The notes under the pieces are model-generated. The model did no database searches. It worked only from the letters and a program-made list of their open reading frames with translations, and was not told where the DNA came from. 64,000 nucleotides of DNA, taken from Roseomonas indoligenes (GTDB taxonomy: Bacteria > Pseudomonadota > Alphaproteobacteria > Acetobacterales > Acetobacteraceae). The position numbers were made by a program, and so were the translations under genes. Below are positions 19,810-40,732 of this stretch, piece after piece. The DNA is taken from NCBI RefSeq assembly GCF_017813365.1, contig NZ_JAGIZA010000022.1, forward strand, positions 1 to 64,000. Reading direction: 5' to 3'. How positions within the stretch are numbered: the first letter of the stretch is position 1; each line of letters begins with the position of its first letter.

Positions 19810-19869
19810 ATGGAACGTTTCGATGATATCCTGCATCCGCAGGGTATCGGGTCGTAGGAAGCGTTCCAT
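19810..19869 (+). promoter_or_regulatory. Nested stem-loop leader enclosing the ribosome site and TTG start of the protease gene
   Basis: ATGGAACG (19810-19817) is a perfect inverted match of CGTTCCAT (19862-19869). Inside it GATATCCTG (19825-19833) pairs with CAGGGTATC (19840-19848) with one mismatch. The Shine-Dalgarno AGGAAG (19856-19861) and the first base of the TTG start codon sit in or beside the outer stem, so folding would hide them. The same bases encode a 15-codon reading frame (19810-19857, MERFDDILHPQGIGS) whose TAG overlaps the Shine-Dalgarno, so translation of it could open the structure. Function is inferred from layout only; an operator dyad is the alternative. Confidence 0.4.
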
Positions 19870-22064
19870 TGCGTAGTTACAAGCTTGATGATTCGGGGCT
19901 GAACGAGAGCGATGGCGGGTTCGACACTCCCTTCATCCCGCCCGGTGCCCTCGGCCTCGCGCCTCCCCAGGGCCTGACGCCGCCCGGCGCGCCGGTGCCG
20001 CCGATGGCGTCCACATTCCCCGATCCGGACCAGCCGGGCGCCCCTGAGCTGGACGTCTTCTACGGCCTCGACAGCGGCACGGTGCCGATGGAGGAGCCGG
20101 AGGACTATTCGGCCTCTTACGGCAAATGGGGTGCCTCCCGCAGCTTCGGCACCGCCGGGGGCGTGGTGACCTGGAGCATCGCCGGGGCCGGTCTCTCCAA
20201 CGGCACGGGCAGCTACAGCTTCTTCACTGGCAGCACGGTGTCGCTGTCGAGCTTTCTCTCTTTCGATTACAGCGCCGTCCTCACTCAGGCCTTTGCCGCC
20301 TGGTCTTCGGTCGCGAACATCACCTTCGTTCAGGTGGCCGATGGCGGCGGCAGCATCGGTGTCGGCCTTTCCGCCAACATTCGCATCGGCGCCGGCTACG
20401 TGGATGGCCGCCCGGTCTATGGCAGCAGCGTGCTGGCATCCACCTTCCTGCCGTCCAGCTACACGAACCCCGCCAGCGTCGCGACCTCCGGCGACGTCGT
20501 CTTCGACAGCGCGGAGGGAAGCTTCTGGACGCCCAACAGCTTCCTCGCGGTCGCCACGCATGAGATCGGGCACTCGCTGGGGCTAAGCCACTCCGGCTTC
20601 TCCAGCGCTCTCATGTCCCCCTACTACAACGCCGCCATCACCACGCCGCAGGCGGATGACATCGCGGGCATCCGCTCCATCTACGGCTCGGCCAGCGGCT
20701 TTCCCGGGTCCGTGTCCATCAACAATGTCACCATCACGGAGGGCACGGGGGGCATCACCTATGCGACTTTCACGGTGACCCGCACCGGCGGGAGTTCCGC
20801 CTTCTCCGTGAACTATGCCACGGTTGACAGCACCGCCCATGCCGGCAGCGACTATGTCGCGACCTCCGGCACGCTTTTCTTTGAGAGCGGCGCCCTTTCG
20901 AAGACGGTTTCCGTCGCCGTCCTCGGGGATAGTCTTCACGACCCGAACGAGGCCTTCGTCGTCGCCCTCTCCGGCGCCACGAACAACGCCCTCGTCACCA
21001 ACGGCGTGGGCGTCGGCACGATCCTGGACAACGACGCCCCTTTCCGCCCGACCGGCTTCGCCCTGGCCAGCTTCGCGCCCAACGCCGGCGGCTGGGCCAG
21101 CAACGACCTTGTTCCGCGCCACCTTGCGGACGTGAACGGCGATGGCGCGGCCGACATCATCGGCTTCGGTTTCGGCGGCGCGCTCGTCTCCCTCGCCAAT
21201 GGCCGCGGCGGCTTCGACAATCCCGGCTACGGGCTGGGTGCCTTCGGTGCCGACAACGGCGGCTGGGTCAGCGACAGCCTCCTCCCGCGCGAGCTGGCCG
21301 ACGTGAACGGCGACGGAATGGCCGACATCGTCGGCTTCGGCTTCAACGGGGTCTATGTTTCCCTCGCCACCGGTGGCGGCCACTTCGCCGGCCCCACCTT
21401 CGAACTCGGGGCCTTCGGTGCCAACAGCGGCGGCTGGGTCAACAGCAACATCCTCCCGCGTGAGCTGGCCGACGTGAACGGCGACGGAATGGCCGATATC
21501 GTCGGCTTCGGCTTCAACGGGGTCTATGTTTCCCTCGCCACCGGCGGCGGCCACTTCGCCGGCCCCACCTTCGAACTCGGGGCCTTCGGTGCCAACAGCG
21601 GCGGCTGGGTCAACAGCAACATCCTCCCGCGTGAGCTGGCCGACGTGAACGGCGACGGAATGGCCGATATCGTCGGCTTCGGCTTCAACGGGGTCTATGT
21701 TTCCCTCGCCACCGGCGGCGGCCACTTCGCCGGCCCCACCTTCGAACTCGGGGCCTTCGGTGCCAACAACGGCGGCTGGGTCAGCAACGACATCCTCCCG
21801 CGCGAACTGGCCGACGTGAACGGCGACGGGATGGCCGACATCGTCGGCTTCGGCTTCAACGGCACCTATGCCGCCCTCGCGACCGGTGGCGGGCATTTCG
21901 GGCCGGTGATGCAGCAGGTCGCCGACTTCGGCCCCTCGGCCGGCGGCTGGGTCAGCAACAATCTCCTTCCGCGCGAGCTGGCCGACGTGAACGGCGACGG
22001 CCATGACGACATTGTCGGCTTCGGCTTCGGTGGCGTTTATACCACCCTCTCCAACTACGACTGA
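19869..22064 (+). CDS. Secreted metzincin (M10-like) protease with Calx-beta and FG-GAP/VCBS repeats
   Basis: 731 residues from a TTG start, chosen because AGGAAG lies 7 bases upstream and no ATG precedes the conserved region. Residues ~70-275 are a matrixin-like catalytic domain: THEIGHSLGLSHSG (~230-243) gives the three zinc histidines and catalytic Glu, and SALMSPYYN supplies the Met-turn. Residues ~280-390 are a Calx-beta domain (NVTITEGTGGITYATFTVTRTGG, DYVATSGTLFF). Residues ~393-731 are six 57-residue FG-GAP-like repeats, each with the calcium loop DVNGDG.AD. No N-terminal signal peptide exists, so export by a type I system is likely, although the usual RTX nonapeptides are absent. Low-complexity Pro-rich N-terminus (residues 20-60). 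Probably acts on extracellular protein. Confidence 0.85.
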   Translation: MRSYKLDDSGLNESDGGFDTPFIPPGALGLAPPQGLTPPGAPVPPMASTFPDPDQPGAPELDVFYGLDSGTVPMEEPEDYSASYGKWGASRSFGTAGGVVTWSIAGAGLSNGTGSYSFFTGSTVSLSSFLSFDYSAVLTQAFAAWSSVANITFVQVADGGGSIGVGLSANIRIGAGYVDGRPVYGSSVLASTFLPSSYTNPASVATSGDVVFDSAEGSFWTPNSFLAVATHEIGHSLGLSHSGFSSALMSPYYNAAITTPQADDIAGIRSIYGSASGFPGSVSINNVTITEGTGGITYATFTVTRTGGSSAFSVNYATVDSTAHAGSDYVATSGTLFFESGALSKTVSVAVLGDSLHDPNEAFVVALSGATNNALVTNGVGVGTILDNDAPFRPTGFALASFAPNAGGWASNDLVPRHLADVNGDGAADIIGFGFGGALVSLANGRGGFDNPGYGLGAFGADNGGWVSDSLLPRELADVNGDGMADIVGFGFNGVYVSLATGGGHFAGPTFELGAFGANSGGWVNSNILPRELADVNGDGMADIVGFGFNGVYVSLATGGGHFAGPTFELGAFGANSGGWVNSNILPRELADVNGDGMADIVGFGFNGVYVSLATGGGHFAGPTFELGAFGANNGGWVSNDILPRELADVNGDGMADIVGFGFNGTYAALATGGGHFGPVMQQVADFGPSAGGWVSNNLLPRELADVNGDGHDDIVGFGFGGVYTTLSNYD
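21049..22061 (+). repeat. Six tandem 171-bp coding repeats (FG-GAP units)
   Basis: The 57-codon unit recurs six times. Two central copies (21396-21566 and 21567-21737) look identical base for base, including synonymous positions; flanking copies differ at scattered sites. The pattern implies recent duplication or gene conversion, and recombination between copies could change repeat number. Confidence 0.85.
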
Positions 22065-22722: not shown

Positions 22723-23694
22723 CTAGTCCGCCACCGCCCGGCTTCCCTCCTTCCCGTCGGCCGGGCAGTCCTCCACCACTTCCCGCGCCAGGGTCAGCAG
22801 CAGGCGCCGCAGCCAGGCATGGCCCTGGTCGGCCTCGAAGCGCCGGTGGAAGATCATGGAAAGGCGGGTGTGCTGCGTCGCCGCGGCCGCTGCCTCCGGC
22901 AGGGGCAGCATCGCCAGCCCGTTCGCGGCGGAAAGCTGCCGCGCCAGGCGGGAGGACAGGGTCATCACCATGTCCGTCCCCAGCAGGATGCTCGGCACAG
23001 CGGAGAGATGGGCGACCACCGCGCCCAGCCGCCGGGAGTGGCCGAGGTCCCGCAGGATACGGTCCATCGCCCCGTCCCGCGAGCCGTTGGGCGAGTGCAG
23101 CAGGTGCGGGAAGGCGGTGTAGCGCTCCAGGCTCAGCGGCCCATCCAGCAGCGGGTGCCCGGGGCGGACGAGGATCATGAAGGCCTCCGGCAGCAGCCGC
23201 AGCCGGGTGTAGAGGGCGGTGGGCTCCGCCAGCATGGCCACCGCCAGCTGCGCCTCGTCCCCTTCCAGCAAGGCATTGGCATTGGTGCGGTCCGCGTGGC
23301 GGATGGCCACCAGGATGCCCGGCGCCTCCTTCGCCAGGCGCGCGAAGAGCGGGGGCGCCAGGATCGCCTCCGCATATTCCGAGAAGGCGAGGGTGAAGAC
23401 GCGGTCGCTCGTCGCTGGGTCGAAGGGGGCGGTGGCGGCCAGGGTCTCCTGCAGCCGGTCCAGCACCTCCGCCACCGGCTGCATCAGGGCGAGCGCGAGG
23501 CTGGTGGGCTCCACCCCCTGGGGTGCGCGCAGGAACAGCTCGTCCCCCAGGGCCCCCCGCAGCCGGTTCAGCGCGTTGGAGACGGCGGGCTGGGAGAGGT
23601 TCAACCGCGACGCCGCGCGGGTGACATGCCGCTCCCGCGCCACCGCGTCGAAGACGCGCAGCAGGTTGAGGTCGAGCTGCGACAGGTCCTTCAT
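22723..23694 (-). CDS. LysR-family transcriptional regulator
   Basis: 323 residues. N-terminal winged helix-turn-helix (LDLNLLRVFDAVARERHVTRAASRLNLSQPAVSNALNRLR, split here for reading, residues ~7-46), then a type-2 periplasmic-binding-like effector domain resembling NodD/NahR-type members. The ATG at 23694 overlaps the stop of the glucosyltransferase gene (ATGA), so the regulator is translated after it from the same message and may autoregulate that unit. Effector unknown. Confidence 0.88.
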   Translation of the reverse strand: MKDLSQLDLNLLRVFDAVARERHVTRAASRLNLSQPAVSNALNRLRGALGDELFLRAPQGVEPTSLALALMQPVAEVLDRLQETLAATAPFDPATSDRVFTLAFSEYAEAILAPPLFARLAKEAPGILVAIRHADRTNANALLEGDEAQLAVAMLAEPTALYTRLRLLPEAFMILVRPGHPLLDGPLSLERYTAFPHLLHSPNGSRDGAMDRILRDLGHSRRLGAVVAHLSAVPSILLGTDMVMTLSSRLARQLSAANGLAMLPLPEAAAAATQHTRLSMIFHRRFEADQGHAWLRRLLLTLAREVVEDCPADGKEGSRAVAD

Positions 23695-25424
23695 GCCCGG
23701 TGATCCCCCTGGGCCCCATCCTTGGCGCGGGCGGGCCCGGACGCCAAGGCCGCCAGTTCCTCCGGCGTGGCGGCGATGCGGTGCCGGACGAGCAGGGCGG
23801 AGAGCCCGGGTGAGGCCGTGAGCACGCAGAGCGGCACCGCCAGCACCGGCCCCGCCAGGAAGGGAAGGCCGAGCAGCAGCGCCGTCCCGGAGGCCGAGGC
23901 CAGTGCCGCGGTGCAGCCCAGCCCGATCAGCGTGTGCGGCCAAAGCAGCCGCGCCGCGTCCCGCCAGGCCACGCCGCGATCCGCCCGGTTCTGCGGCGCC
24001 CAGCCGCCCCGGCCACCGAGGGCCAGCCGGCCCAGGGCAAGGCTCTTGTTGAGAAGGCTGACCGGCTCCACCAGCAGGGAGAAGAGGATTTCCGCCCCCG
24101 CTCCGCGCAGCACCGCCCGGCGCCCGCCATAGAGGGCGGCGCGCTCCCGCCGCATCAGCAGCTCCGCATAGCCCATCAGCTTCGGCGCTGCGTTGGCGGC
24201 CCAGGTGAGGGCCAGCAGCGCCGCCAGCGCCCCCATGGGCGTCCCCGCCCCGCCGCCCGTCGCGGCATTCGCCGCCGCCGCCAGCAGCATCCCCAGCCAG
24301 AGCGGCGCGCAGAGGAAGAGCAGCATGGCCTGCGCCAACTGCCACCGCCCCATGAGGGTCAGGCCCGGCCGCAGGATCAGGTGGCGGTACTGCATGTTCC
24401 CCGCCCCCCAGCGCACGTCCCGCGCCAGGAACTCCGGCAGGGCGGGGGGATTGCCCTCCAGGCTGCCATCCTCGGAGGGCAGGCAGCGCACGCGCCAGCC
24501 GGCGGCGTGCAGGCGCACCGCCTCCACCTGGTCGTGGGAAAGGATGGAGGAGCCGTCCGGCAGGGGCGCGAGCCGCGCGTGCGCCCGGAAAGGTGCAATC
24601 CGCAGCACGGCGTTGTGGCCCCAGTAGGGACCGTCATCCAGCTGCCACCAGCCCTGCCCCGTGGCCCAGGCCCGCATTCCCGCACGCATCCCGAACTGGA
24701 ACAGGCGGGGGAAGGCGCGCGCCGCCGGGCGGCCGGCGATGAGCTGCTGGATCAGCGCCAAGCCCGGATCGGCCTCCATCCCCCGCACCAGCCGCAGCAC
24801 GGCGGCCGCCGACATCTCGGAATCCGCGTCCAGCATCAGGGCTAGGTCATGATCGCCGGCGTGATGGTCCAGGAACTCCATCACATTCCCCGCCTTGAAG
24901 CCGGTATTGCCTGCCCGACGGCGGTAGCGCACGGAAATCGGGCTGGCGGCGGCGAATGCGGCGACCGCCGCCGCCTCCGCCGCCGCATGCGCCGCGTCCG
25001 CGGTGTCCGAGAGGAACCACAGGGTGAAACGTCCTCCCTGCCCCGCCGCCGCCAGCCCATCCAGCAGCCGCCCCAGGGGGGGCAGCACGCCCTCCATGGC
25101 CTCGTTGCGGATGCAGACGGCAATGGCGGTGCGCAGGGGCGGCCCGATGCGCGGCGCGGCCACCTGCGGCACCAGGAAGGCCGGCGCATCCGGCTCCCGC
25201 AGCAGAAGAAACAGGCCGATCGCGGCGTTCGCCACACAGATCGCCGTCCAGGGCAAGGTTCCCAGGTAGAGGGCGGCGATCGCCGCCTCCCACCCCGTCC
25301 AGCCGCCGGGAAGCAGCACCCGCCAGAGCAGCGCCGCCAGCGGCAGGGCAACGACAAGGCAGAGCAGCAGGAAGAGCGCGCGGCGGAGCGCGGGGCGCTC
25401 CCGGTGCGTCGGATTCACGATCAC
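23691..25424 (-). CDS. mdoH: MdoH/OpgH-like membrane glucosyltransferase
   Basis: 577 residues, shorter than the ~840 of E. coli OpgH. Two N-terminal helices (LFLLLCLVVALPLAALLWRV; GTLPWTAICVANAAIGLFLL) precede a GT2 domain with DADSEMS (metal-binding), GYWGHNAVLRI-type WGHNAVLRI and SHDQVEAVRLH, and C-terminal helices (LAQAMLLFLCAPLWLGMLLAAA; ILFSLLVEPVSLLNKSLA). Family members build osmoregulated periplasmic beta-glucans from UDP-glucose. No mdoG/opgG partner is present in the window, so the product is uncertain. It is divergent from the acyl-CoA dehydrogenase cluster, only 46 bases away; the intergene contains the palindrome TTGCGCAA at about 25454-25461. Confidence 0.85.
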   Translation of the reverse strand: MIVNPTHRERPALRRALFLLLCLVVALPLAALLWRVLLPGGWTGWEAAIAALYLGTLPWTAICVANAAIGLFLLLREPDAPAFLVPQVAAPRIGPPLRTAIAVCIRNEAMEGVLPPLGRLLDGLAAAGQGGRFTLWFLSDTADAAHAAAEAAAVAAFAAASPISVRYRRRAGNTGFKAGNVMEFLDHHAGDHDLALMLDADSEMSAAAVLRLVRGMEADPGLALIQQLIAGRPAARAFPRLFQFGMRAGMRAWATGQGWWQLDDGPYWGHNAVLRIAPFRAHARLAPLPDGSSILSHDQVEAVRLHAAGWRVRCLPSEDGSLEGNPPALPEFLARDVRWGAGNMQYRHLILRPGLTLMGRWQLAQAMLLFLCAPLWLGMLLAAAANAATGGGAGTPMGALAALLALTWAANAAPKLMGYAELLMRRERAALYGGRRAVLRGAGAEILFSLLVEPVSLLNKSLALGRLALGGRGGWAPQNRADRGVAWRDAARLLWPHTLIGLGCTAALASASGTALLLGLPFLAGPVLAVPLCVLTASPGLSALLVRHRIAATPEELAALASGPARAKDGAQGDHRA

Positions 25425-25470
25425 TCACGGAAATGGGATGGGATCAGAGTAGCTTGCGCAACTGCAAACC

Positions 25471-26646
25471 GTGAGCACCTTATCGCACGTTATGGATGCC
25501 CTCACCCTTACCAGCGCACTCGCCCCCCCCGCGGCGGACGAGGCTGTCCTCTCTCGGCTCCGTGCCGTCATGCCGGCCATCGCAAGCCGCGCGGCGGCGC
25601 TGGACAGCATGGATTCCGCCCTGCCGGAGGCGGATGTTGCTGCGCTGGCGGAAGCCGGGTTGCTGACAGCCCCCCTGCCCCGCGCGCTGGGCGGCCGGGG
25701 CTGGGGCAGCGAACCCGCCGGGGCCGAATCGGTCTTCGAGGCGCTTCGGCTGGTGGGCCGGGCGAGCCTGCCGTTGGGCCGGCTCTATGAGGGCCATGTC
25801 AACGCGATACGGCTGGTGGCGGAGCACGGCACCCCCGCCCAGCACGCCGCCGCAGCCGCCGCCGCGCGGGACGGCCGTCTTTTCGGTGTCTGGAACACGG
25901 AGCGGCCGGGGATCGACCTGCGAATCGATGCGGAGGGGGTTCTGCGCGGAGGGAAGGTGCTCTGCTCCGGCGCCGGGCTGGTGGAGCGCGCCCTCGTGAC
26001 GGGCCGCCATGGCGGCGAGGGCCCGCAGCAGATGCTGCTGGTGCCACTGGAGCGCGGGACGGACCGCGCGGAAAGTTCCGAGTGGCGCGTGACGGGCATG
26101 CGCGCCTCCGCCACCGGCACGGTGATGATGGACGGCATCCCCGCCACGGAGGAGATCGTGCTCGGCGAGCCCGACGCCTACATGCGCCAGCCCGGCTTCT
26201 CTGGCGGCGCCTGGCGCTTCCTGGCCGTGCATCTCGGCGGGGTGGAGGCGGTGGCCGCGGCGCTGCGCGAGCACCACATCCGCACGGGCCGTGGCGCCGA
26301 CCCGCACCAGGCGGCCCGCTTCGGCGCGGTTCTGACGGCAGCCGAGACGGCCCGCCTCTGGGTGTTGAACGCCGCCCGGATGGTGGAGGAGGAGGTGGCC
26401 GAGCCCGCGCGGATCATTGCCTATGTCGATCTCGCGCGCGGCGCGGTGGAGCGGGCGGCGCTGGACGTGCTGGAACTGGCGCAACGCTCCATCGGCCTGC
26501 AGGCCTTCACCCGCGCCAACCCGGTGGAGCGGATGATGCGTGACCTCGCCACCTATCTGCGCCAGCCCGCACCGGACCGCGCGCTGGTGGCGGGCGCGGC
26601 CGCCGGGCTGGCCTTCGGCGAGGCCGTGGGCGACATGTGGCCGTGA
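25471..26646 (+). CDS. Acyl-CoA dehydrogenase-like flavoprotein in a glycosyltransferase cluster
   Basis: 391 residues from a GTG start. The fold is acyl-CoA dehydrogenase: N-terminal helical domain (LPEADVAALAEAGLLTAPLPRALGG), a middle beta domain (GFRASATGTVMMDGI-like GMRASATGTVMMDG) and a C-terminal helical domain (AQRSIGLQAFTRANPVERMMRDL). The usual catalytic Glu of ACADs is not obvious, so oxidation of a CoA ester is not assured; the family also includes enzymes acting on amines and nitro compounds. It is the first gene of a six-gene run; the deacetylase gene begins inside its last codons. Confidence 0.8.
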   Translation: MSTLSHVMDALTLTSALAPPAADEAVLSRLRAVMPAIASRAAALDSMDSALPEADVAALAEAGLLTAPLPRALGGRGWGSEPAGAESVFEALRLVGRASLPLGRLYEGHVNAIRLVAEHGTPAQHAAAAAAARDGRLFGVWNTERPGIDLRIDAEGVLRGGKVLCSGAGLVERALVTGRHGGEGPQQMLLVPLERGTDRAESSEWRVTGMRASATGTVMMDGIPATEEIVLGEPDAYMRQPGFSGGAWRFLAVHLGGVEAVAAALREHHIRTGRGADPHQAARFGAVLTAAETARLWVLNAARMVEEEVAEPARIIAYVDLARGAVERAALDVLELAQRSIGLQAFTRANPVERMMRDLATYLRQPAPDRALVAGAAAGLAFGEAVGDMWP

Positions 26647-27404
26647 GGGCCGGCGACTTCCTGCGGGAGGCCGAGGCGCTGCCGCTGGTTCCCTTGAACA
26701 CGCTAGTCCCGGAAGGCGGCGTGCTGGTGCTGGCACCGCACCCCGACGATGAATCCCTGGGCTGCGGCGGGCTGCTGGCCGCGCTGGCTGCGGCGGGCCG
26801 CCCGGCGCGCGTGGTGGTGATGTCGGACGGCGCGGGATCGCACCCGAATTCCCGCACCCATCCCGCCCCCGTGCTGCGCGAGCTGCGGCGGCGGGAGGCC
26901 GTGGAGGCAATGCGGGCGCTCGGCGTCCCGCCGCCGATTTTCCTCAACCTGCCGGATGGCGACGTGCCCAGGGCCGAAACCCCGTCAGGAAACGCGGTTG
27001 CCTTCGAGAACGCGGTGGAGGCGGTGATCGGCGCCGCAATCGGGCTGGGCACGATCGCCGCCACGATCGACCTGGATCCGCATAAGGACCACGAGGCGAC
27101 CTGGGCCATCGCGAAGGAGGCTTCGCGCCGCGCGGGGCTGCGGCTGCTGGGCTATCCCGTCTGGAGCTGGCGCCACCTCTATCCCGCCATGGCGCCGATT
27201 GCGCCGGTGGAGGTGCCGGCGCCGCCGCGCGGGATGCGGCTGGACGTCTCCGCGCAGATGGCGGCGAAGCGGCGCGCGGTGATGGCGCATCGGAGCCAAG
27301 TGACGCGGCTGATCGAGGACGATCCTTTTGGCTTTATCCTCTCACCCGCCGTGCTCTCCGTGCTGATGCGGCCCTTCGAGGTCTATCTGGAGGAGGTCGC
27401 GTGA
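26637..27404 (+). CDS. PIG-L family deacetylase
   Basis: 255 residues. The LmbE/PIG-L zinc motif APHPDDESLGCGG lies at ~33-45, and DLDPHKDHEATW supplies the third zinc histidine. Family enzymes remove N-acetyl groups from GlcNAc-type substrates (GlcNAc-PI, mycothiol and bacillithiol precursors, some glycopeptides). GTG at 26637 gives the longest frame; a second GTG at 26643, overlapping the previous TGA (GTGA), is equally plausible. Its stop overlaps the next GTG. Here it probably makes a free amine on a sugar, which the next enzyme could methylate. Confidence 0.85.
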   Translation: MAVRAGDFLREAEALPLVPLNTLVPEGGVLVLAPHPDDESLGCGGLLAALAAAGRPARVVVMSDGAGSHPNSRTHPAPVLRELRRREAVEAMRALGVPPPIFLNLPDGDVPRAETPSGNAVAFENAVEAVIGAAIGLGTIAATIDLDPHKDHEATWAIAKEASRRAGLRLLGYPVWSWRHLYPAMAPIAPVEVPAPPRGMRLDVSAQMAAKRRAVMAHRSQVTRLIEDDPFGFILSPAVLSVLMRPFEVYLEEVA

Positions 27405-27994
27405 AGCCGCCCGGCGAGAGCTTTGGCCCGCAGTTCTTCGAGGAGTTCTACGCGAAGGACCCGGATCCCTGGCGTTTCAGGACTTCGCCCTACGAGCGGG
27501 AAAAATACGCGGCAACCCTCAACGCCCTGCCGCGCGAGCGCTACGAGAGCGCCTTCGAGCTGGGCTGCTCCATCGGCGTGCTCACCCGCCTCCTCGCGCC
27601 CCGCTGCGCGCGGCTGCTCTCGGTTGATGCGGCCGAGGCGCCGCTGGCGGAGGCGCGGGACAACGTGGCCGAGATGCCCTGGGTGGAGATCCGCCGCGCC
27701 CACGTCCCGGCGGACTGGCCGGAGGGCGAGAGCTTCGACCTCATCCTGCTCTCCGAGGTGCTCTACTTCCTCAACCCCGCCGATCTCCGCAGGGTGACGG
27801 AGCAGGCTTTGCGCGCGCTGCGCCCGGGCGGCGACGTGGTGCTGGTGCACTGGTTGCCACCCGCGGATCCGCCCTTCCCGCAGACGGGCGACGAGGCGGT
27901 GGGGGGATTCCTCTCGCATGCCGGCGCCGCGCTGCAGCCTGTCTCGGCACGTCGCGAGGAGCAGTACCGGCTCGACGTGCTGCGGCGCGCGTGA
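27401..27994 (+). CDS. NodS-like SAM-dependent methyltransferase
   Basis: 197 residues. Class I Rossmann methyltransferase with AFELGCSIGVLTRLLAPRC (SAM motif I, ~51-69), LLSVDAAEAPLAEAR (motif II) and FDLILLSEVLYFL (post-I). The N-terminal DPDPWRFRTSPYEREKYAATLNAL is typical of the NodS group, which N-methylates the deacetylated end of Nod-factor oligosaccharides. The GTG start overlaps the deacetylase stop, so deacetylation followed by methylation of the same amine is a natural reading, though not proven. Confidence 0.82.
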   Translation: MKPPGESFGPQFFEEFYAKDPDPWRFRTSPYEREKYAATLNALPRERYESAFELGCSIGVLTRLLAPRCARLLSVDAAEAPLAEARDNVAEMPWVEIRRAHVPADWPEGESFDLILLSEVLYFLNPADLRRVTEQALRALRPGGDVVLVHWLPPADPPFPQTGDEAVGGFLSHAGAALQPVSARREEQYRLDVLRRA

Positions 27995-28139
27995 CACCGA
28001 ATTTACCTGTCGCGCGGCAACGCCGGGGCCGGATCATTCGCTTGCATATTCGGTGCGCGGGCCTTCCGGCACGCTTATTCCCGCCACATTCAAGCGCGAC
28101 ATAGCGCTGAGCAACGGCCCATCGCGGCCTATCGGAGAG

Positions 28140-29264
28140 ATGACGTTGACGGCTGCCACATCGCTCAGGATCGCGGTCGTCTCTCACCTGAAATACCCTA
28201 TCGCGGAGCCCTTCCCGGGCGGGCTGGAGATGTACACGCACATGCTCGCGCGCCTGCTGAAGGCACGCGGCCACGACGTGACGCTCTTCGCCAGCGAGAG
28301 GTCGGACGCGGCCTTGAACCTGCGCACCTACGGCCCGCCCACCGGCACGCCGACGGATGACCGGGAGGCGGAGGCGACGGAGTTCGCCGAGCACCGCGCC
28401 TACGACGCCATGATGGACGACGTGGCGGCCGGCGGCTTCGACATCGTGCACAACAACGCCCTGCACTACCTGCCCCTGACCGCCGCGCGCCGCGTCAAGG
28501 CGCCGATGCTCACGGTCTTCCATACGCCGCCCTTCATGGAGCTGGAGAACGGCGTGCTGGAATGCACGCGGCCGGACATGCGCTTCGTCGCCGTCTCCCA
28601 GGCCGTGAAGGCGATGTGGAAAGATGTGGTGACCGTGGACGAGGTGATCTGCAACGGCATCGACCTCGACCTCTTCGCCGCGCGCACCGGGGCGCCGGCC
28701 CATCCCGCCGCCCATCCCGGCACCGGGCCGCACGCCATCTGGTCCGGCCGCATCGTGCCGGAGAAGGGCACGGACCTGGCGATCCGCGCCGCGCGTCGTG
28801 CCGGCATCCCGCTGCGCTTCGCCGGCCCCATCAGCAACCTCGCCTTCTGGCATGAGAAGATCGTGCCTCTGCTGGGCGAGGACGTCACCTATCTCGGCCA
28901 CCTGAACCACCGCGAGCTGGCGGTCGAGGTCGCGCGCGCCTCCGTCGCGCTCATCACCCCGCGCTTCGACGAGCCCTACGGGCTTGTGGTCGCGGAGGCG
29001 CTGGCCTGCGGCACGCCCATCGCCGGCTTCGCGCGCGGCGCCCTGCCCGAACTGACGAATGAGAAGACGGGCTGCCTCGCCCCGCCCGATGACGTGGATG
29101 CGCTGGCGGACTGCATCCCCCGCGCCGCCGCCCTCTCCCGCGCCGCCTGCCGGGCGCGTGCGGCGGCGAACTGCGACATGCACCGCATGGTCGACCACTA
29201 CGAGGCGCTGTACCATCGGGAGATCGCCCGCGCCGCCGCGGCAGGGGCCATGGCCGCAAGGTAG
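28140..29264 (+). CDS. Glycosyltransferase family 4 protein
   Basis: 374 residues, GT-B fold. N-terminal domain with the GGLEMYTHMLARLLKARGHDV acceptor-binding start (~25-45) and VFHTPPF; C-terminal donor domain with WSGRIVPEKGTDLAIRAARRA, FAGPISN and the EX7E-like segment EPYGLVVAEALACGTPIAGF. Retaining transferase using a nucleotide sugar; cytoplasmic. The ATG at 28140 is used; upstream in-frame codons run back into the previous gene. A 145-base gap separates it from the methyltransferase gene, the only real gap in the cluster. Confidence 0.88.
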   Translation: MTLTAATSLRIAVVSHLKYPIAEPFPGGLEMYTHMLARLLKARGHDVTLFASERSDAALNLRTYGPPTGTPTDDREAEATEFAEHRAYDAMMDDVAAGGFDIVHNNALHYLPLTAARRVKAPMLTVFHTPPFMELENGVLECTRPDMRFVAVSQAVKAMWKDVVTVDEVICNGIDLDLFAARTGAPAHPAAHPGTGPHAIWSGRIVPEKGTDLAIRAARRAGIPLRFAGPISNLAFWHEKIVPLLGEDVTYLGHLNHRELAVEVARASVALITPRFDEPYGLVVAEALACGTPIAGFARGALPELTNEKTGCLAPPDDVDALADCIPRAAALSRAACRARAAANCDMHRMVDHYEALYHREIARAAAAGAMAAR

Positions 29265-29273
29265 GAATCCCGC

Positions 29274-30296
29274 TTGAGTCCCGCCCTCGTCGTCTGCATT
29301 CCCGCGCGGAACGAGGCGGAGCGGCTTCCTCGCCTCCTGCGCGCCCTGGCGGCGCAGGAAGGCCCCGCGCCGCTGCGCGTTCTGGTGCTGGCGAACAACT
29401 GCACGGACGGCACTGCCGAGGCCGCGCGCCGAGAGGCCGCGCCATCCCTGGAGTTGCGCGTGGAGGAGGCGGTGCTGCCGCCGGATCGTTCCCATGCCGG
29501 GGGGGCGCGCGGGCTGGCCATGGGGCGGGGCGCGGCGTGGCTGCGCGAGGCCGGCGCTACCGATGGCGTGCTGCTGAGCACGGATGCCGATTCCGAGCCG
29601 CCGCCGCACTGGGTCGCCGCCAACCTCGCCGCCATCGCCGCCGGGGCTGAGGCCGTGGGCGGCGCCATCCGCATCGCGCCGGAGCCCGGTGCCGCTGTGC
29701 CGGACTGGCTGCAGGCCGCGCAGGCGCGCGTGGCCCGATACTGGGAAGCCGTACGTGCCCTGGCCCATGCCATCGATCCGCTGCCCTATGACCCGCCGCC
29801 GCGCCACGGCGACCACACCGGCGCCAGCCTCGCCGTGACGCTGGCGGCCTTCGAGGCCGCCGGCGGCGTGCCCGCCATTCCCACCGGCGAGGACAACGCG
29901 CTGGTCACGGCCATCGAGCGCAATGGCGGCCGCCTGCGCCACCCGCCCGATGTCTGGATCGCCGTGTCCGCGCGCGAGGACGGCCGCGCCACCGGCGGCA
30001 TGGCCGGCGAGGTCCGCCGCTGGCGCGAGATGGCGGAGAGCGGCGCGCCCCACCTGCTGCCCGATGCTGCCTTCTGGCAGGCCCTGTTCATGCGCAACCG
30101 GGCCCTGCGCGATTCCTGGCCGCGCGCCGATGCGCGCATTGCCGGCGCCGATCCCGACATCCTCGCCCGCACGGCGCGGGAGAGCGTGAACGCGATCGCC
30201 TTCGTCAAGCGCGCCGAACCGCTCCTGCCGCCACTGACGCCGGAATGGCACGAGATTGCCCGCGCCACGCGCGACCTGGAAGCGATGGTGCGATGA
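29274..30296 (+). CDS. Glycosyltransferase family 2 protein
   Basis: 340 residues from a TTG start (AGGAA lies 7 bases upstream, and the previous stop is 9 bases away). GT-A fold: VVCIPARNEAERLPRLLRAL at the N-terminus, LANNCTDGT, the DADSEPPPHW metal site (~104-113) and the GEDNALVTAIERNGG acceptor/base motif. No membrane segments. Its TGA overlaps the ATG of the next gene. Resembles mannosyl- or glucosyl-transferring GT2 proteins; donor unknown. Confidence 0.85.
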   Translation: MSPALVVCIPARNEAERLPRLLRALAAQEGPAPLRVLVLANNCTDGTAEAARREAAPSLELRVEEAVLPPDRSHAGGARGLAMGRGAAWLREAGATDGVLLSTDADSEPPPHWVAANLAAIAAGAEAVGGAIRIAPEPGAAVPDWLQAAQARVARYWEAVRALAHAIDPLPYDPPPRHGDHTGASLAVTLAAFEAAGGVPAIPTGEDNALVTAIERNGGRLRHPPDVWIAVSAREDGRATGGMAGEVRRWREMAESGAPHLLPDAAFWQALFMRNRALRDSWPRADARIAGADPDILARTARESVNAIAFVKRAEPLLPPLTPEWHEIARATRDLEAMVR

Positions 30297-31309
30297 GGCC
30301 CGTCGGCTACTACGTGCACCATCAGGGCATGGGCCACTGGCACCGTGCCGCTGCCCTGGCACGGCAGATGCGCCACCCCGTGACGCTGATCGGCACCATG
30401 GCGGAGCCGCGCGAGGCACCCTGCCCCGTCCTCGTTCTGCCCGACGATGCCGGCGCCGACGGGCGCCACGGCGATCCGGCCGGCGTGCCCGGCCTGCACT
30501 ACGCGCCGATCCACCACGAGGGGATGCGCGTCCGCGGCGCCGCCATCGCCGGATGGATCGCGCGGGAACGCCCGGCCCTGATGGTGGTGGACGTCTCCGT
30601 GGAGGTGGCCGTTCTCTCACGCCTCCTCGCGACGCCTTTCCTCTACTTCCGCTTGTCCGGCACGCGGGACGATGCGCCGCACATCACCGCCTTCCGCGCC
30701 GCCGAGGCCCTGATCGCCCCCTTCCCCGCCGTGCTGGAGGATCCCGCCACGCCGGACTGGGCGCGTGCGAAGACCTTCCACGCCGGTTTCCTTTCCGGCA
30801 GCGGTGCCCTGCCCTCCTCGGGCAGTGGGATCGTCGCCGCCTTCGGGCGCGGCGGCACGGGCGGTGACGCATCCGCCCTGGCGGCTGCCGCACGCGCCGT
30901 TCCCGGCCAGCGCTGGCGCGTCCTCGGCCCCGTCACCGGCCGTGCCGACCTGCCGCCCAACCTGGAACTGCTGGGATGGCGCGACGACGCGAGCGCCATT
31001 CTGGCAGAAGCCGATCTCGTCGTCGGCGGCGGAGGGGACGGGCTGGTGGCGGAGGTCGCGGCCCTCGGCAAGCGCTTCCTCTGCCTGCCGGAGCCACGGC
31101 CCTTCGACGAGCAGGGAACCAAGGCCCGCCGCCTCGCCGCCCTCGGCGCGGCGGTGGTGCGGGAGGAGTGGCCGAAGGACTGGCCGGAGGCGATCACTGC
31201 AACGCTCGCGCTGGACCCCGCGCGCATCGCAGCGCTGCACGATCCGCAGGCCATGGCGCGCACCGCCGCCTTTATCGACGAGGTGGCGGCGCGGTTCGAC
31301 GGAGCCTAG
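30293..31309 (+). CDS. MurG/MGT-like glycosyltransferase (GT28/GT1 type)
   Basis: 338 residues. N-terminal GYYVHHQGMGHWHRAAALARQM resembles the GT-B entry motif of MurG and related transferases. The C-terminal donor domain includes ELLGWRDDASAILAEADLVVGGGGDGLVAEVAALGKRFLCLPEPRPFDEQGTKA, here described in parts: the GGGGxGxxxE loop (~243-252) and PRPFDEQ (nucleotide-sugar binding). ATG overlaps the GT2 stop. Last gene of the run; it ends 10 bases before a convergent gene. Substrate unknown. Confidence 0.8.
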   Translation: MRPVGYYVHHQGMGHWHRAAALARQMRHPVTLIGTMAEPREAPCPVLVLPDDAGADGRHGDPAGVPGLHYAPIHHEGMRVRGAAIAGWIARERPALMVVDVSVEVAVLSRLLATPFLYFRLSGTRDDAPHITAFRAAEALIAPFPAVLEDPATPDWARAKTFHAGFLSGSGALPSSGSGIVAAFGRGGTGGDASALAAAARAVPGQRWRVLGPVTGRADLPPNLELLGWRDDASAILAEADLVVGGGGDGLVAEVAALGKRFLCLPEPRPFDEQGTKARRLAALGAAVVREEWPKDWPEAITATLALDPARIAALHDPQAMARTAAFIDEVAARFDGA

Positions 31310-31318
31310 CCCCGGCCC

Positions 31319-32560
31319 TTACTGGCCGGGCGCAACCGCGATGCAGGGCCCTCGCGCCGTGCGGCAGGCCCGGCGTGCCCGGTCCTGGGAAAGCCCGGTC
31401 ACGCGCGCGCGCCAGAGCCAGCCGCTACGCACCCGCACGCGCCGCAGATCCACCGTGCCGCCCCCTGCGGCCGCGCGCCGCGCCGCGGCCTGTGCAGGCC
31501 CGCGATCCGCGTAGGCGCCCACCTGCACCGCCCATCGGCCGGGCACGGGTGCCTTCCGCGCGGCGGGCGGCCGCGGGCGGGGCACGGCCGCACGAACGAC
31601 CGGGCGCGGCGCCGCCACACGGGGCAGCGGCCGCAGCGCGGGCGCGATGGCCGCGGCCTGCGCGGTGCCGACGAAGCGCAGCCCGCCGCGCGAGGCCATC
31701 ATCGTGCCGCCCTGCGGTGGGGCGATCTGGTCGAAGCCCTGGTCGAGCAGCGCCATGACATGCGCGTCCCGCGCGGCACCGCTCGCGCCCCCGAACACCA
31801 CCGCCACCAGCCGTCTTCCGTCGCGCACGGCGCTGGCGGCCAGGTTGAACCCGCTGGCATCGATATATCCCGTCTTGATCCCGTCCGCGCCGTCATAGGC
31901 GGTGAGGAGGCGGTTGTGGTTGCCGATGTAGCGCCCGCGCCAGTCGAAGCCGGAGGCGCTGAAATAGGCGTAGCGCTCGGGGAAGTCCCGGATCAGCCGG
32001 CGGCTGAGGACCGCGATGTCGCGCGCCGTCGTCACCTGCCCACGGTCCGGCAGGCCGGATGCGTTGCGGAAGGTGGTCCGGCCCATGCCCAGCGCGCGAG
32101 CCTTGCGCGTCATCATCCGCGCGAAGCCGGCCTCGCTCCCGCCGAGATGCTCGCCCAAGGCCGCCGCCGCGTCGTTCGCCGACTTCGTGACGAGCGCCAT
32201 CATCGCCTCCCCGACCGAGATCGTGGAGCCCGCGCGCAGGCCGAGCTTGGAGGGCGGCCGGCTGGCGGCGTGTCGCGAGACGCGGATGCGCGTGCTCTCC
32301 GTCATCTTGCCGCGCCCCAGCGCCTCGAAGGCAAGGTAGAGCGTCATCATCTTCGTCAGCGAGGCCGGGTAGCGCGGCGCGTCCGCATCCACCGCGAACA
32401 GAACCTCGCCCGTTCCCGCATCCTGCACGAAGGCGGCGTAGCGCCTGTCGCCCGGCTCCGCACGCGACGGCAAGGCGAGCGCGGCCGGGGCAAGAAGCGA
32501 CACGGCGAGCAGCGCGGCAAGCGCCAGGCGGCACCGCGTGGCACGGCTGAGAAGCGGCAT
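31319..32560 (-). CDS. D-alanyl-D-alanine carboxypeptidase with C-terminal SPOR domain
   Basis: 413 residues. The ATG at 32560 opens a clear signal peptide (RCRLALAALLAVSLLAPAALA). Penicillin-binding motifs of peptidase family S11 are present: SLTK (~61-64, catalytic Ser and Lys), SAN (~120) and KTG (~228). A linker of Pro/Arg/Ala residues is followed by a SPOR domain (WAVQVGAYADRGPAQAAARRAA to the end), which binds denuded septal glycan. It trims the last D-Ala from stem peptides in the periplasm, probably at the division site. Monocistronic and convergent with the glycosyltransferase cluster. Confidence 0.9.
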   Translation of the reverse strand: MPLLSRATRCRLALAALLAVSLLAPAALALPSRAEPGDRRYAAFVQDAGTGEVLFAVDADAPRYPASLTKMMTLYLAFEALGRGKMTESTRIRVSRHAASRPPSKLGLRAGSTISVGEAMMALVTKSANDAAAALGEHLGGSEAGFARMMTRKARALGMGRTTFRNASGLPDRGQVTTARDIAVLSRRLIRDFPERYAYFSASGFDWRGRYIGNHNRLLTAYDGADGIKTGYIDASGFNLAASAVRDGRRLVAVVFGGASGAARDAHVMALLDQGFDQIAPPQGGTMMASRGGLRFVGTAQAAAIAPALRPLPRVAAPRPVVRAAVPRPRPPAARKAPVPGRWAVQVGAYADRGPAQAAARRAAAGGGTVDLRRVRVRSGWLWRARVTGLSQDRARRACRTARGPCIAVAPGQ

Positions 32561-37888: not shown

Positions 37889-38752
37889 ATGGCAATTCAA
37901 AGAATTTTACCCAGTTTATTCCTGAACCAGCCCACCACCCGAGATTATGTGCCACACCAGAAAGAAGGTCTGTCCATTCCAAGGATCATACATCAAACAT
38001 ATCGATCTTGGGACGCTATACCCACAGTCATCCGTGACAGTATAGCCGAGATGCGCGCGCGCAATGTCGGCTGGGATTATCGATTCTACGATGATGCTGC
38101 CGTCAGTCAATTTATTCGAGATGCTTACGGATCAAATATACTGGCTCGCTTTGAGCGGATCGACCCCCGATATGGTGCGGCGCGGGCCGATGTATTTCGC
38201 TATCTGTTGGCCTATCACACGGGCGGTGTTTACCTCGACATCAAGAGCACGGCTAGCCGCCCCCTGGACGAGCTTTTACTCCCAAATGATCGATTGATAC
38301 TCGCGCAGTGGCCAGAGGACGCGGCCTTCGATGGTTGGGGTAGCCACGACTGGGATTTCGCCGGGAGGATCAAGGGCGGCGAGTTCCAACAATGGCACGT
38401 TATATGTGCGCCTGGCCATCCCTACATGCACGCAGTAATCAATGCGGTTCTCCGGAATATCGACTGCTACATCCCGCAGATGCACGGCTGCGGAGTCAAT
38501 GCCGTGCTACGTTTGACAGGACCGATCGCTTATACGATTGCGATGTTGCCGCTACTAAATGCCGGGCTGCATCGGACCGCGCAGCAACACAGGGACTTGG
38601 GCCTGGATTATTCGATGCTTCCAGCCAATGCGGATCACAAGAAGATTCTCGTGTCGCATTACAGCAAGCTGTCGCAGCCGATCGTTCACCCTTATTTTGC
38701 CCAAAAAGTGTTAGGGCGCCTCTACACACTATATGACGGTTTGCGGAAGTGA
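37889..38752 (+). CDS. DXD-type sugar transferase (Gly_transf_sug/OCH1-like), likely acquired
   Basis: 287 residues. IPRIIHQTYRSW at the N-terminus, RADVFRYLLAYHTGGVYLDIK (~94-114) with the D-x-D variant, and a helical C-terminus match the Gly_transf_sug family that transfers hexoses to capsule or lipid-linked glycans. The gene and its flanks are clearly AT-richer than the neighbourhood (many AT-ending codons), pointing to horizontal transfer. It splits nasT from the rest of the nitrate genes. Upstream, GAGGAGG (37793-37799) precedes a 16-codon frame at 37808-37858 that may be a leader peptide or chance. No partner polysaccharide genes are nearby. Confidence 0.8.
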   Translation: MAIQRILPSLFLNQPTTRDYVPHQKEGLSIPRIIHQTYRSWDAIPTVIRDSIAEMRARNVGWDYRFYDDAAVSQFIRDAYGSNILARFERIDPRYGAARADVFRYLLAYHTGGVYLDIKSTASRPLDELLLPNDRLILAQWPEDAAFDGWGSHDWDFAGRIKGGEFQQWHVICAPGHPYMHAVINAVLRNIDCYIPQMHGCGVNAVLRLTGPIAYTIAMLPLLNAGLHRTAQQHRDLGLDYSMLPANADHKKILVSHYSKLSQPIVHPYFAQKVLGRLYTLYDGLRK

Positions 38753-39500
38753 CCATTGTCCCGACATCATGATCTCGTGAAATGCAATAAAGAACATCCA
38801 ACGAAACAAGCCTGCGCCGTGCAGTGCCTGGCGGTCGTTCGCCGTTGCGGCAGACAAGCTTTTCCGTCGAATGTTGATGGCTAGGCGGCTGAGGCTCTAT
38901 CTTCGAAAGAGCCGCCGGAGCACGCTTGGTCCTGCGACAATTTTCAGAGCTCACGTCACCACTCCACTGGTAAGCGCGCCGGCAATCGAACCCTTGCCCA
39001 CAGGGCAACCGCGCAACGGTGCAGAGCCAAGCACAGGCTGCAAGTCGAGCATGGGCTTATGAGACGAAAGGTTGCTCGATTTCGCTCATCTCGCTCAGCC
39101 GAGATGTCGGTTGGGGATTCAGCGTTCGGGCTCTGAGGCGATGAAGGTTCGCGTATCGGGAGCAGGGAGCAGCACTCAGCGACGTGGCGGATCACGGTGC
39201 CGTCGCTTAACTAGGGACCAGCCGAGATCCGCCGGGCCACCGGATCGCGCCTGCGTATGCCGATCATCTCGCCACCCAGTCCGTTCGTGCCTGCAGCACC
39301 ATAGCCCCGCAGGTGCCTCCACTGCCCGCCCAGAGCTGAGTCCTCCGGCCAGCTTCACAGTTGAGCTGAACGGCAAGGCGATAGGACAGGCGTCGAGTTA
39401 CTGCCAATGAGGAGCGATTTGATCAACTTTTAGGCTTCTCGCACAAAATGTCGTCGTTTTTCCGAGTGCCTTTTCGTCTTTGCCCGAATAAGTTGCGTAT
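38753..39500. other. AT-richer stretch without a recognised gene
   Basis: About 750 bases after the acquired sugar transferase. Only short frames without ribosome sites are present; none resembles a known product. Composition is intermediate between the transferase gene and the GC-rich background, as in the decayed flank of an insertion. No insertion-sequence ends or direct repeats were identified by eye. Confidence 0.5.
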
Positions 39501-39512
39501 TTCGCTTGCCTG

Positions 39513-39569
39513 CCTGCACCGCCGCATGATCAATGAGGCCTACGGGGTCGGCCTGCAACGATGCAGGTC
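39513..39569 (+). promoter_or_regulatory. Candidate ANTAR-target leader (two hexaloop hairpins) of the nitrate operon
   Basis: P1: TGC (39515-39517), six-base loop ACCGCC (39518-39523), GCA (39524-39526), with one mismatch and one further pair outside. P2: GGCCTGC (39550-39556), six-base loop AACGAT (39557-39562), GCAGGTC (39563-39569), a 7-bp stem with one G-U pair. Both loops have A at position 1 and G at position 4, the rule for ANTAR-bound RNA. It lies 93 bases before nasS, the first gene of the operon, downstream of the regulator gene nasT. A terminator that should follow was not clearly seen; a T5 run near 39630 lacks a good stem. Confidence 0.6.
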
Positions 39570-39661
39570 CTCGGCCACCCCGATCGGCCATCCGGCGGTC
39601 CAATGGCGGCCCGCCTCCCGCTTCCCCAGGATTTTTCCGACAGGGGGAGCCCGGAGCGCGC

Positions 39662-40732
39662 ATGCCAGACCGGCCCCTCCGCATCGGCTATGTGCCCCTG
39701 ACCGACGCCGCGCCGCTTCTCGTCGCCGAGGAGATGGGGCTGTTCCGCCAGCACGGCGCCCGCGTGGCGCTCTCCGAGGAATCTGCCTGGGCGGCGGTGC
39801 GGGACCGGCTGGCCCACGGCATCCTGGACGGCGCCCACCTGCTGGCCCCCATGCCCATCGCCCTCTCCTGCAGCCTGGGCGGGGTGCGCGCGCGGCTCTC
39901 GGTCGGCGCCGGCATCGGCCGCAACGGCAACACCCTCACCCTTTCCAACGCGATGGCGGAGGAGGCCGGGCTGGACCCGGACGGCGCGCCGCTCTCGGCC
40001 GAGGCCTTCGCCGCCGCCATCCGCGCCCGCGCCGCCGCCGGGCGCCCGCCGTTGCGGCTGGCGGCCGTGTTCCCCTTCTCCTCCCACCATTACCTGCTGC
40101 GCCACTGGCTCGCCTCCGGCGGGTTGGACCCGGACCACGACCTGCGCCTCGTCCTCGTGCCGCCGCCCCGTACCGCGCGCGCGCTGGAGGCGGGCGAGGT
40201 AGACGGCTTCTGTGCCGGCGAGCCCTGGGGCAGCCACGCCGCGGCGCTCGGCCTCGGCCGCGTGGCGCTGACAGGTGGCGACATCTGGCCGGACCACCCG
40301 GAAAAGGTGCTCGCCTTCCGCGAGGGCCTGCCTTTCGAGAGCGGCGTGGCGGTGACCGCCGCCGTGATCGCCGCCGCCCGCTGGCTGGACGACCCCGCCA
40401 ACCGCGACGATGCGGCGCGGCTGATGCATGCCCGCGTCTTCCCCTTCATGGCGCGAGAGACGGTGCGGCTGGCGCTGGACGGGCTGACGCCCACCGCGAA
40501 CGGCACGCGCGCGCTGCCGGCCCCCATGCGCTTCCGCGAGGCGACCCTGGCCCGGCCCGAGGCCGCCGCCTGGTACCTGCGGCAGATGCGCCGCTGGGGC
40601 CACGTGCCGGAGGGCGTGCCGGACGAGAGCGCCCTTTCCGCCTTCGGCGATGCCACCTGGCACGCCGCCGCCGCCCTGCTGGGCGAAGCCGAACCCCGAA
40701 CCGTGACCCTCCCCGAGGAGAAAGCCGCGTGA
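39662..40732 (+). CDS. nasS: NasS-like cytoplasmic nitrate/nitrite sensor
   Basis: 356 residues related to the NrtA/CmpA binding proteins but with no signal peptide (starts MPDRPLRIGYVPLTDAAPLL). The core GILDGAHLLAPMPIALSCSLGG, FPFSSHHYLLRHWLASGGL, EVDGFCAGEPWGSHAA and the GDIWPDHPEKVLAF segments fit NasS, which binds nitrate in the cytoplasm and releases NasT. The ATG at 39662 is preceded by GGAG within the gagcccggagcgcgc stretch. Stop overlaps a GTG/ATG pair of nrtA (GTGAGCATG). Partner of NasT at 37062. Confidence 0.85.
   Translation: MPDRPLRIGYVPLTDAAPLLVAEEMGLFRQHGARVALSEESAWAAVRDRLAHGILDGAHLLAPMPIALSCSLGGVRARLSVGAGIGRNGNTLTLSNAMAEEAGLDPDGAPLSAEAFAAAIRARAAAGRPPLRLAAVFPFSSHHYLLRHWLASGGLDPDHDLRLVLVPPPRTARALEAGEVDGFCAGEPWGSHAAALGLGRVALTGGDIWPDHPEKVLAFREGLPFESGVAVTAAVIAAARWLDDPANRDDAARLMHARVFPFMARETVRLALDGLTPTANGTRALPAPMRFREATLARPEAAAWYLRQMRRWGHVPEGVPDESALSAFGDATWHAAAALLGEAEPRTVTLPEEKAA

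Follow-up and report, generated by a model that had tools for sequence, protein, structure and literature searches.

A conserved gene cassette of Roseomonas indoligenes predicted to build a modified amino-sugar glycoside, with a probable role in stress

The window is a stretch of 64,000 nucleotides from Roseomonas indoligenes (contig NZ_JAGIZA010000022.1, positions 1 to 64,000), and at 25471-31309 on its plus strand lie six open frames for a flavoenzyme of the acyl-CoA dehydrogenase (ACAD) fold, a PIG-L N-deacetylase, a NodS-like methyltransferase and three glycosyltransferases of the GT4, GT2 and GT28 kinds. The core of this cassette, found again in many genomes, is the ACAD-like flavoenzyme, PIG-L and the NodS-like methyltransferase, usually together with the GT2. 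We infer, with somewhat better than even confidence, that the conserved cassette makes a small glycoside, or the head group of a glycolipid, on the cytosolic side and that it is linked to stress. The features are as follows.

25471..26646, plus strand: ACAD-fold flavoenzyme, 391 amino acids, GTG start (Pfam, alignment)
26637..27404, plus strand: PIG-L (LmbE-type) N-deacetylase, 255 amino acids, HPDDE and DPHxDH motifs (Pfam, alignment)
27401..27994, plus strand: NodS-like S-adenosylmethionine-dependent methyltransferase, 197 amino acids (Pfam, NCBIfam, structure-profile search)
28140..29264, plus strand: GT4 glycosyltransferase, first gene of the GT4-GT2-GT28 block (Pfam)
29274..30296, plus strand: GT2 glycosyltransferase, 340 amino acids, TTG start (Pfam, alignment)
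30293..31309, plus strand: GT28-like glycosyltransferase, 338 amino acids (Pfam, AlphaFold model, relatives)
23691..25424, minus strand: MdoH/OpgH-like membrane glucosyltransferase, divergent, judged to lie outside the pathway (NCBIfam, neighbour comparison)

Conservation of the cassette

Because the gene order is conserved, the GT4-GT2-GT28 block moves together and members of the cassette are fused in some genomes, we predict that the six genes form one pathway; the linkage counts and the fusions led us to reject the view that they are chance neighbours. The synteny check named by the original prediction thus came out in favour of a single pathway. In an even draw of 398 Pseudomonadota genomes, the ACAD-like family (E <= 1e-40) was present in 34, about one in twelve, the window being one of these positives. 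The methyltransferase (33/34) and PIG-L (29/34) were located within 1.8 kb of the ACAD-like gene, and the GT2 (27/34), GT4 (6/34) and GT28-like (5/34) genes within 6 kb, so that the partners of this marker gene are nearly always present in that sample. In this tally the genes of the window were entered by hand, and for one genome (G208; G, L and C numbers are our handles for genomes, loci and contigs) the assignment was made from a locus with flanks of 1.5 kb. At E <= 1e-20, PIG-L was matched in 17 of 60 genomes, and not every one of these matches belongs to a cassette.

The trio of ACAD-like, PIG-L and methyltransferase genes is present in 8 of the 15 genomes of the listed genus (G000, G003, G004, G006, G010, G012, G013 and G014), and it is joined to the GT4-GT2-GT28 block in four of these (G000, G006, G013 and G014). 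All six genes are found together again in Roseomonas, Methylobacterium, Sphingobium and Novosphingobium, and the order ACAD-PIG-L-methyltransferase is repeated in many families of Pseudomonadota, in Deinococcota and in Cyanobacteriota. Among plasmid records, the trio is found in Deinococcus wulumuqiensis and D. radiodurans, interrupted by a further gene in each of the two; Nostoc sp. UHCC 0926 has the quartet. Acinetobacter ursingii carries the matching four genes, and the Acinetobacter version has no GT4 or GT28-like gene. Relative to the trio, the GT4-GT2-GT28 block takes three arrangements. It follows the trio in Roseomonas. In G152, G386, Sphingobium sp. RAC03, Novosphingobium sp. P6W and N. 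resinovorum SA1 and HR1a it lies ahead of the trio and is read in the same direction, and in Methylobacterium sp. WL119 and G200 block and trio face each other. All matches of PIG-L (78/78) and of the methyltransferase (110/110) share the strand of the ACAD-like gene, as counted over partly overlapping loci in which a single ACAD match exceeded 100 bits. Single-frame fusions join the GT2 to the ACAD-like protein in Methylobacterium aquaticum, and PIG-L to the methyltransferase in G449, a genome of the class of the window.

The scan of named relatives weighs against too simple a picture. It yielded at least 563 confirmed relatives, of which 80 were kept, 54 of them from Methylobacterium or Methylorubrum. 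Beside the ACAD-like gene of these 80, PIG-L was found in 29, the methyltransferase in 62 and the GT2 in 35; 33 had the methyltransferase without PIG-L, 17 had no partner at all and one had the GT2 only, with some loci ending at contig ends. Clearly, the ACAD-like family is found in other settings as well.

Gene layout in the window

The codon-position G+C pattern is typical of real genes in all six frames, in agreement with the original prediction of six genes on one strand. In gene order, the junctions are an overlap of 10 bases, an overlap of 4, a gap of 145, a gap of 9 and an overlap of 4. The claim that five junctions are tight has therefore to be amended, as a row of six genes has no more than five junctions, of which four are tight here; the stop of the methyltransferase gene at 27994 and the ATG of the GT4 gene at 28140 are separated by 145 bases. 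Because of this gap, the cluster could possibly be two transcription units of three genes each. A sigma-70 promoter scan of the cluster found none, an Rfam scan of 25300-31500 gave no match, and the two terminator-like sites detected compare with an expectation of 1.4.

Pfam domains were found in all six proteins. PIG-L (PF02585, 80.8 bits) is the sole Pfam match of the deacetylase, and the methyltransferase matches NodS with 56.2 bits. The GT4 protein matches Glyco_transf_4 (62.7 bits) and Glycos_transf_1 (60.3 bits), the GT2 protein Glycos_transf_2 (37.3 bits) and the GT28-like protein Glyco_tran_28_C (30.6 bits). The N- and C-terminal ACAD domains are barely above the gathering score (24.6 bits, cut-off 22.9, and 23.2 bits, cut-off 22.4). 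None of the six proteins passes an NCBIfam cut-off, and none contains a strongly hydrophobic stretch of 19 residues above the hydropathy threshold.

As originally predicted, the MdoH-like gene is divergent and 46 bases away from the ACAD-like gene. Its protein passes one NCBIfam MdoH cut-off (403.5 vs 328 bits) and stays below those of the other listed MdoH models. Among loci L021-L158, the only cassettes with MdoH as a neighbour are those of G006 (L030, L049), G013 (L031) and the window (L129), and G006 and G013 are close relatives of the genome of the window. As the adjacency is not conserved beyond these two relatives, MdoH was rejected as a partner in the pathway.

The deacetylase and the methyltransferase

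The metal-site residues of PIG-L (H35, D37, D38, E39, D147, H149, D151 and H152) are present in 21 of 21 aligned rows. The alignments of PIG-L, methyltransferase and GT2 were made without L030 and L031, and that of PIG-L also without the cassette-free loci L043-L048. For the methyltransferase, NodS is the best-scoring model, and the NodS equivalog NF041650 gives 72.3 bits against a cut-off of 300, which is missed. The solved structure closest to the methyltransferase family is PDB 4isc (E 6e-50), followed by NodS; 4isc is listed solely as a methyltransferase, with no function given. It is plausible that an amino sugar would be N-deacetylated and then N-methylated by these two enzymes. That N- and O-methylation cannot be told apart from sequence is a point against this proposal.

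A hint about the deacetylase came from Rubrobacter indicoceani, where a stretch of 17 kb contains an ACAD-like gene (a weaker match, with 169 bits), the methyltransferase and the GT2, and no PIG-L was found. A polysaccharide deacetylase (PF01522, 92 bits) is located 44 bases upstream of the ACAD-like gene, that is, before this gene and not in the usual slot of PIG-L between the ACAD-like and methyltransferase genes. NodB belongs to the same polysaccharide deacetylase family. In this single case, it looks like a sugar deacetylase of one kind has been swapped for another, and the swap is our best indirect hint that the PIG-L step could be a carbohydrate N-deacetylation. A second PIG-L gene lies just past the cassette in four genomes of one genus (L167, L173, L188 and L189; Pfam check on L167).

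The ACAD-like flavoenzyme

The ACAD-like protein has the marks of its family, an EGHVNAL-like stretch and the C-terminal RDLATYLRQPAPD, and its closest named relative among the matches listed is from Roseomonas populi (90% identity). The original prediction assigned all six enzyme families, which Pfam bears out, and took this protein for a dehydrogenase. We consider the dehydrogenase reaction doubtful because no conserved Glu follows the RD motif: across 52 aligned rows, no invariant or nearly invariant Glu was found past D358, in the segment that holds the catalytic Glu of many dehydrogenases. The test covered the C-terminal segment after the RD motif, and some dehydrogenases have an alternative Glu position. 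The 52 rows are the protein of the window and 51 of 55 picks (without L030, L094, L116 and L118), and a thinned alignment used every third of the 51 picks plus the protein of the window. A first alignment was made without the close copies L030 and L031 and without L035, and the fused frame of M. aquaticum was aligned as two stretches. The ACAD-like gene of L035 (G012) has an in-frame stop within the matched N-terminal part, and is possibly a broken copy or has a different start.

Among solved structures, the ACAD-like profile matches DszC (83.7 bits) and MsuC (81.4 bits) best, followed by an acyl-CoA dehydrogenase (73.4 bits), DnmZ (66.1 bits) and a nitrososynthase (62.8 bits); this ranking alone does not decide between dehydrogenase and monooxygenase. 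When the profile was restricted to the C-terminal half, the match extended to the chain end in MsuC, 5z8t and 5gj7, three of the 30 solved chains; the latter two were deposited under the name acyl-CoA dehydrogenase type 2 domain protein. The likeness to the class D flavin monooxygenases (DszC, MsuC and the nitrososynthases) makes a monooxygenase reaction a guess with some support, and the reading would be a weak one. Several points tell against it. The other 27 of the 30 chains stop at positions 133-137, near the RD motif; among them are the dehydrogenases, and the monooxygenases 2jbr and XiaF as well. The SfnB and DszC equivalog cut-offs of NCBIfam are missed, dehydrogenases score among the monooxygenases, and no flavin reductase is among the genes of the cassette. 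Nitrososynthases act on the nitrogen of amino sugars, and by analogy the kinship with them suggests that N-oxidation may occur here.

Two Deinococcus records (L194:6750-9089 and L027:4143-6515) have an ACAD-like protein with about 400 extra N-terminal residues. The extra part has no Pfam match at 1e-3; by eye, it resembles a GH1-type glycosidase.

The glycosyltransferases and a seventh gene

In the GT2 protein, the residues of the acidic motifs (T103, D104, D106, E206 and D207) are found in 15 of 15 rows. For the GT28-like protein, AlphaFold gave a model of medium quality, with a predicted local distance difference test score of 75.9. The GT4 protein scores 67.5 bits with TIGR04047, a model of the MSMEG_0565 cluster, below the cut-off of 259.85.

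The six genes were originally said to look like a complete route, which is not supported. In four sphingomonad records (RAC03, P6W, SA1 and HR1a) the operon ends with a seventh gene, which encodes a galactosyltransferase-like GT2, and a homologue of this gene is located on another contig of the genome of the window, 61% identical to the Pseudoroseomonas copy. The genes beside this homologue presumably encode a phytochrome kinase and a heme oxygenase. Photoreceptor-like genes were seen near members of the pathway, the phytochrome-like kinase by the seventh GT2 (L202:8782-13653, contig C3 of the same genome) being one, a BLUF protein close to the Bradyrhizobium cassette (L023:717-1148) another, and blsA, published as a neighbour of the Acinetobacter operon, a third.

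The stress setting

We consider a role of the pathway in stress probable, because relatives of the cassette lie near trehalose, catalase and end-joining genes and because of one published case of co-regulation. In 46 genomes with the ACAD-like gene, we located stress families and counted those within 10 kb of that gene. Such neighbours made up 5 of 31 matches for Mn-catalase (expected 0.13; 3 of 29 minus two previously seen loci), 3 of 47 for OtsA (expected 0.19), 2 of 32 for Ku (expected 0.13) and 4 of 133 for catalase (expected 0.55). For triose-phosphate isomerase, the neutral control, the count was 1 of 55 (expected 0.23). Since the families and the 10-kb limit were picked after first looks at the neighbours, P values are guides only. 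At least one of the four families was within 10 kb in 13 of the 46 genomes. In a hand-picked, non-random set of 18 annotated plasmid stretches, catalase, Mn-catalase, OtsA, Ku or LigD was found within 8-9 kb in nine. A long catalase gene is directly ahead of the operon in the same direction in RAC03, P6W and SA1, and divergent in HR1a. The cassette of G294 adjoins genes for a 4-alpha-glucanotransferase and an alpha-amylase-type protein; homologues occur in G401, G343 and G367 of one genus and as a frame in L165, and a GlgX-like protein is near the cassette of G413; we infer that these neighbours are trehalose or glycogen genes. A Pfam tally of 132 flanking frames from 19 loci gave low numbers, among them alpha-amylase 3, Mn-catalase 2, MFS 2, BLUF 2, catalase 1 and OtsA 1.

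The published case is from Acinetobacter baumannii, where the operon ACICU_02432-02435, matched to the cassette by annotation, has the same four gene kinds. In Table 2 of PMC5660220, this operon is down 31- to 62-fold in two colistin-dependent mutants, and the same paper lists the trehalose-6-phosphate synthase/phosphatase genes (otsA/otsB) as down 12- to 50-fold and a catalase as down 22- and 31-fold in the same mutants. Entries in PMC6240043 place the same four gene kinds beside blsA in Acinetobacter. Unlike the cassette of the window, the Acinetobacter operon has no GT4 or GT28-like gene, and it appears in both papers as list entries only.

Other observations weigh against the stress link. 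The expression data of PMC5660220 come from a colistin study and not from a stress test. None of the four stress families is within 10 kb in 33 of the 46 genomes, and nine of the 18 plasmid stretches have no catalase, OtsA, Ku or LigD gene. The genome of the window has its catalase, Mn-catalase and OtsA on other contigs, and no match to Ku. No EcfG-type motif was found in a scan of the cluster of the window. In regions upstream of alphaproteobacterial GT2 genes, the motif was found in 8 of 54, vs a mean of 0.41 in mononucleotide shuffles and 1 on the opposite strand; for the ACAD-like gene the upstream count was 4 of 107, vs 0.50 and 7 on the opposite strand, and the other counts were 2 of 89 for the methyltransferase, 0 of 11 for the GT4 and 0 of 24 for the ACAD-like gene of other groups. 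These counts carry little weight, as the rows are related.

Two further kinds of neighbours were observed. A protein with a LigD 3'-phosphoesterase domain is encoded between the GT2 and ACAD-like genes of Methylobacterium longum (L053:7333-7932; Pfam check on L053), with homologues in L059 and L064, all of them Methylobacterium loci without PIG-L. A fusion resembling sucrose-phosphate synthase and phosphatase lies beside pathway genes in L163:4274-6658 (Pfam check on L163) and L181:4710-6842.

A proposed pathway and its alternatives

How the enzymes could act together is suggested by their families. The core GT2 would put an N-acetylated amino sugar onto an acceptor, PIG-L would take off the acetyl group, and the NodS-like enzyme would methylate the freed amine. 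The ACAD-fold flavoenzyme, perhaps nearer to the class D flavin monooxygenases than to the dehydrogenases, would then oxidise the product, possibly on nitrogen. In the version of the window, the GT4 and GT28-like enzymes, with the seventh GT2 encoded elsewhere in the genome, would add more sugars. The product would most likely be a protectant or a redox-active metabolite of stationary phase, drying or oxidative stress. A more specific proposal, which we put forward as a long shot, is a hitherto undescribed class of bacterial stress metabolites in which a small oligosaccharide bears an N-methylated and N-oxidised glucosamine (a hydroxylamine or nitrone), is made by a soluble cassette, and serves as a dry-state protectant or radical scavenger beside trehalose and catalase. 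Its cassette, which is found in Pseudomonadota, Deinococcota and Cyanobacteriota and in a variant form in Actinomycetota, would combine Nod-like tailoring with an amine oxidation related to that of the nitrososynthases. Searches of the open literature, mostly outside subscription journals and wholly outside preprints, gave no paper that names this pathway or its product in its title, at the start of its abstract or in the passages covered; the Acinetobacter operon came up there as list entries only.

The glycosyltransferases could instead extend an envelope glycan, with the deacetylase and the methyltransferase tailoring this surface polysaccharide or lipopolysaccharide. The three to four glycosyltransferases, the MdoH-like glucan enzyme 46 bases off and the MFS transporters near some loci would fit such decoration. 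It is nevertheless unlikely, as the conserved set has no flippase, polymerase or membrane-anchored transferase, none of the six proteins has a 19-residue window over the hydropathy threshold, the adjacency of MdoH is not conserved, and the Acinetobacter version makes do with four genes, without GT4 and GT28-like. We find it quite improbable that the cassette is a glycolipid route whose ACAD-like enzyme acts as a genuine acyl-CoA dehydrogenase and supplies an unsaturated acyl chain to an amino-sugar lipid. No invariant or nearly invariant Glu follows the RD motif in the 52 rows, and acyltransferase, acyl carrier protein and acyl-CoA ligase are not in the conserved set, although the Pfam ACAD domains are just over the cut-off, database records annotate the protein in this way, and acyl-CoA dehydrogenases come close behind DszC and MsuC in the structure search (73.4 vs 83.7 and 81.4 bits).

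The NodC-NodB-NodS steps resemble the cassette in that a GT2, an N-deacetylase and a NodS-like methyltransferase are encoded together, and the same reaction logic, with NodS as the best methyltransferase model and a polysaccharide deacetylase in Rubrobacter, could argue for a short modified chito-oligosaccharide or lipid signal in which GT2, PIG-L and the NodS-like enzyme replace NodC, NodB and NodS. Such a signal is very improbable. The cassette differs by its PIG-L in the place of NodB, its extra ACAD-fold flavoenzyme, its hosts, which include Deinococcus, Nostoc and Acinetobacter, and its stress-gene neighbours. NodA (PF02474) had no match in the genome, in a search without a positive control, and none of the six NCBIfam matches of the GT2 protein (E <= 0.001) is named NodC, with no dedicated NodC search made. 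The portions of the Bradyrhizobium paper PMC8092242 covered here have NodS in the reference list alone. Membership in Nod-factor synthesis was rejected, as the NodS model is missed (72 vs 300 bits) and the deacetylase is PIG-L and not NodB; the NodB-NodS analogy of the original prediction thus survives as logic and not as membership. A low-molecular-weight thiol or redox cofactor of the bacillithiol or mycothiol kind has hardly any probability left. The logic of GT4, PIG-L and methyltransferase is shared with bacillithiol, mycothiol and N-methyl-bacillithiol, the last of which combines a GT4, a PIG-L and N-methylation; among the NCBIfam models PIG-L matches BshB1 best, the matches of the GT4 include BshA and MshA, and catalases are neighbours. 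However, the BshB1, BshA and MshA cut-offs are missed (58 of 182, 38 of 274 and 39 of 463 bits), no cysteine ligase is in the conserved set, and the usual partner is the GT2 and not the GT4, which is near only 6 of 34 cassettes. This membership was rejected, as the equivalogs BshB1, BshB2, MshB, BshA and MshA are all below cut-off.

The stress-linked glycoside or glycolipid head group is therefore the reading we prefer; the Nod analogy and the dehydrogenase label are to be dropped as claims of membership, and the stress setting seen in other genomes is to be added. If the stress link is true, the cassette would stand for a widespread protectant or redox metabolite awaiting identification, and the vague labels acyl-CoA dehydrogenase, nodulation methyltransferase, LmbE protein and glycosyltransferase would gain a common setting.

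Other observations in the window

At 38001-40000, the G+C content falls to 0.608, compared with 0.675-0.749 in the other 2-kb stretches. At 19869-22064 on the plus strand, a protein with nearly identical repeats (ADVNGDGMADIVGFGFNG...) is encoded, which we take to be a secreted metalloprotease-like protein with an FG-GAP/VCBS look.

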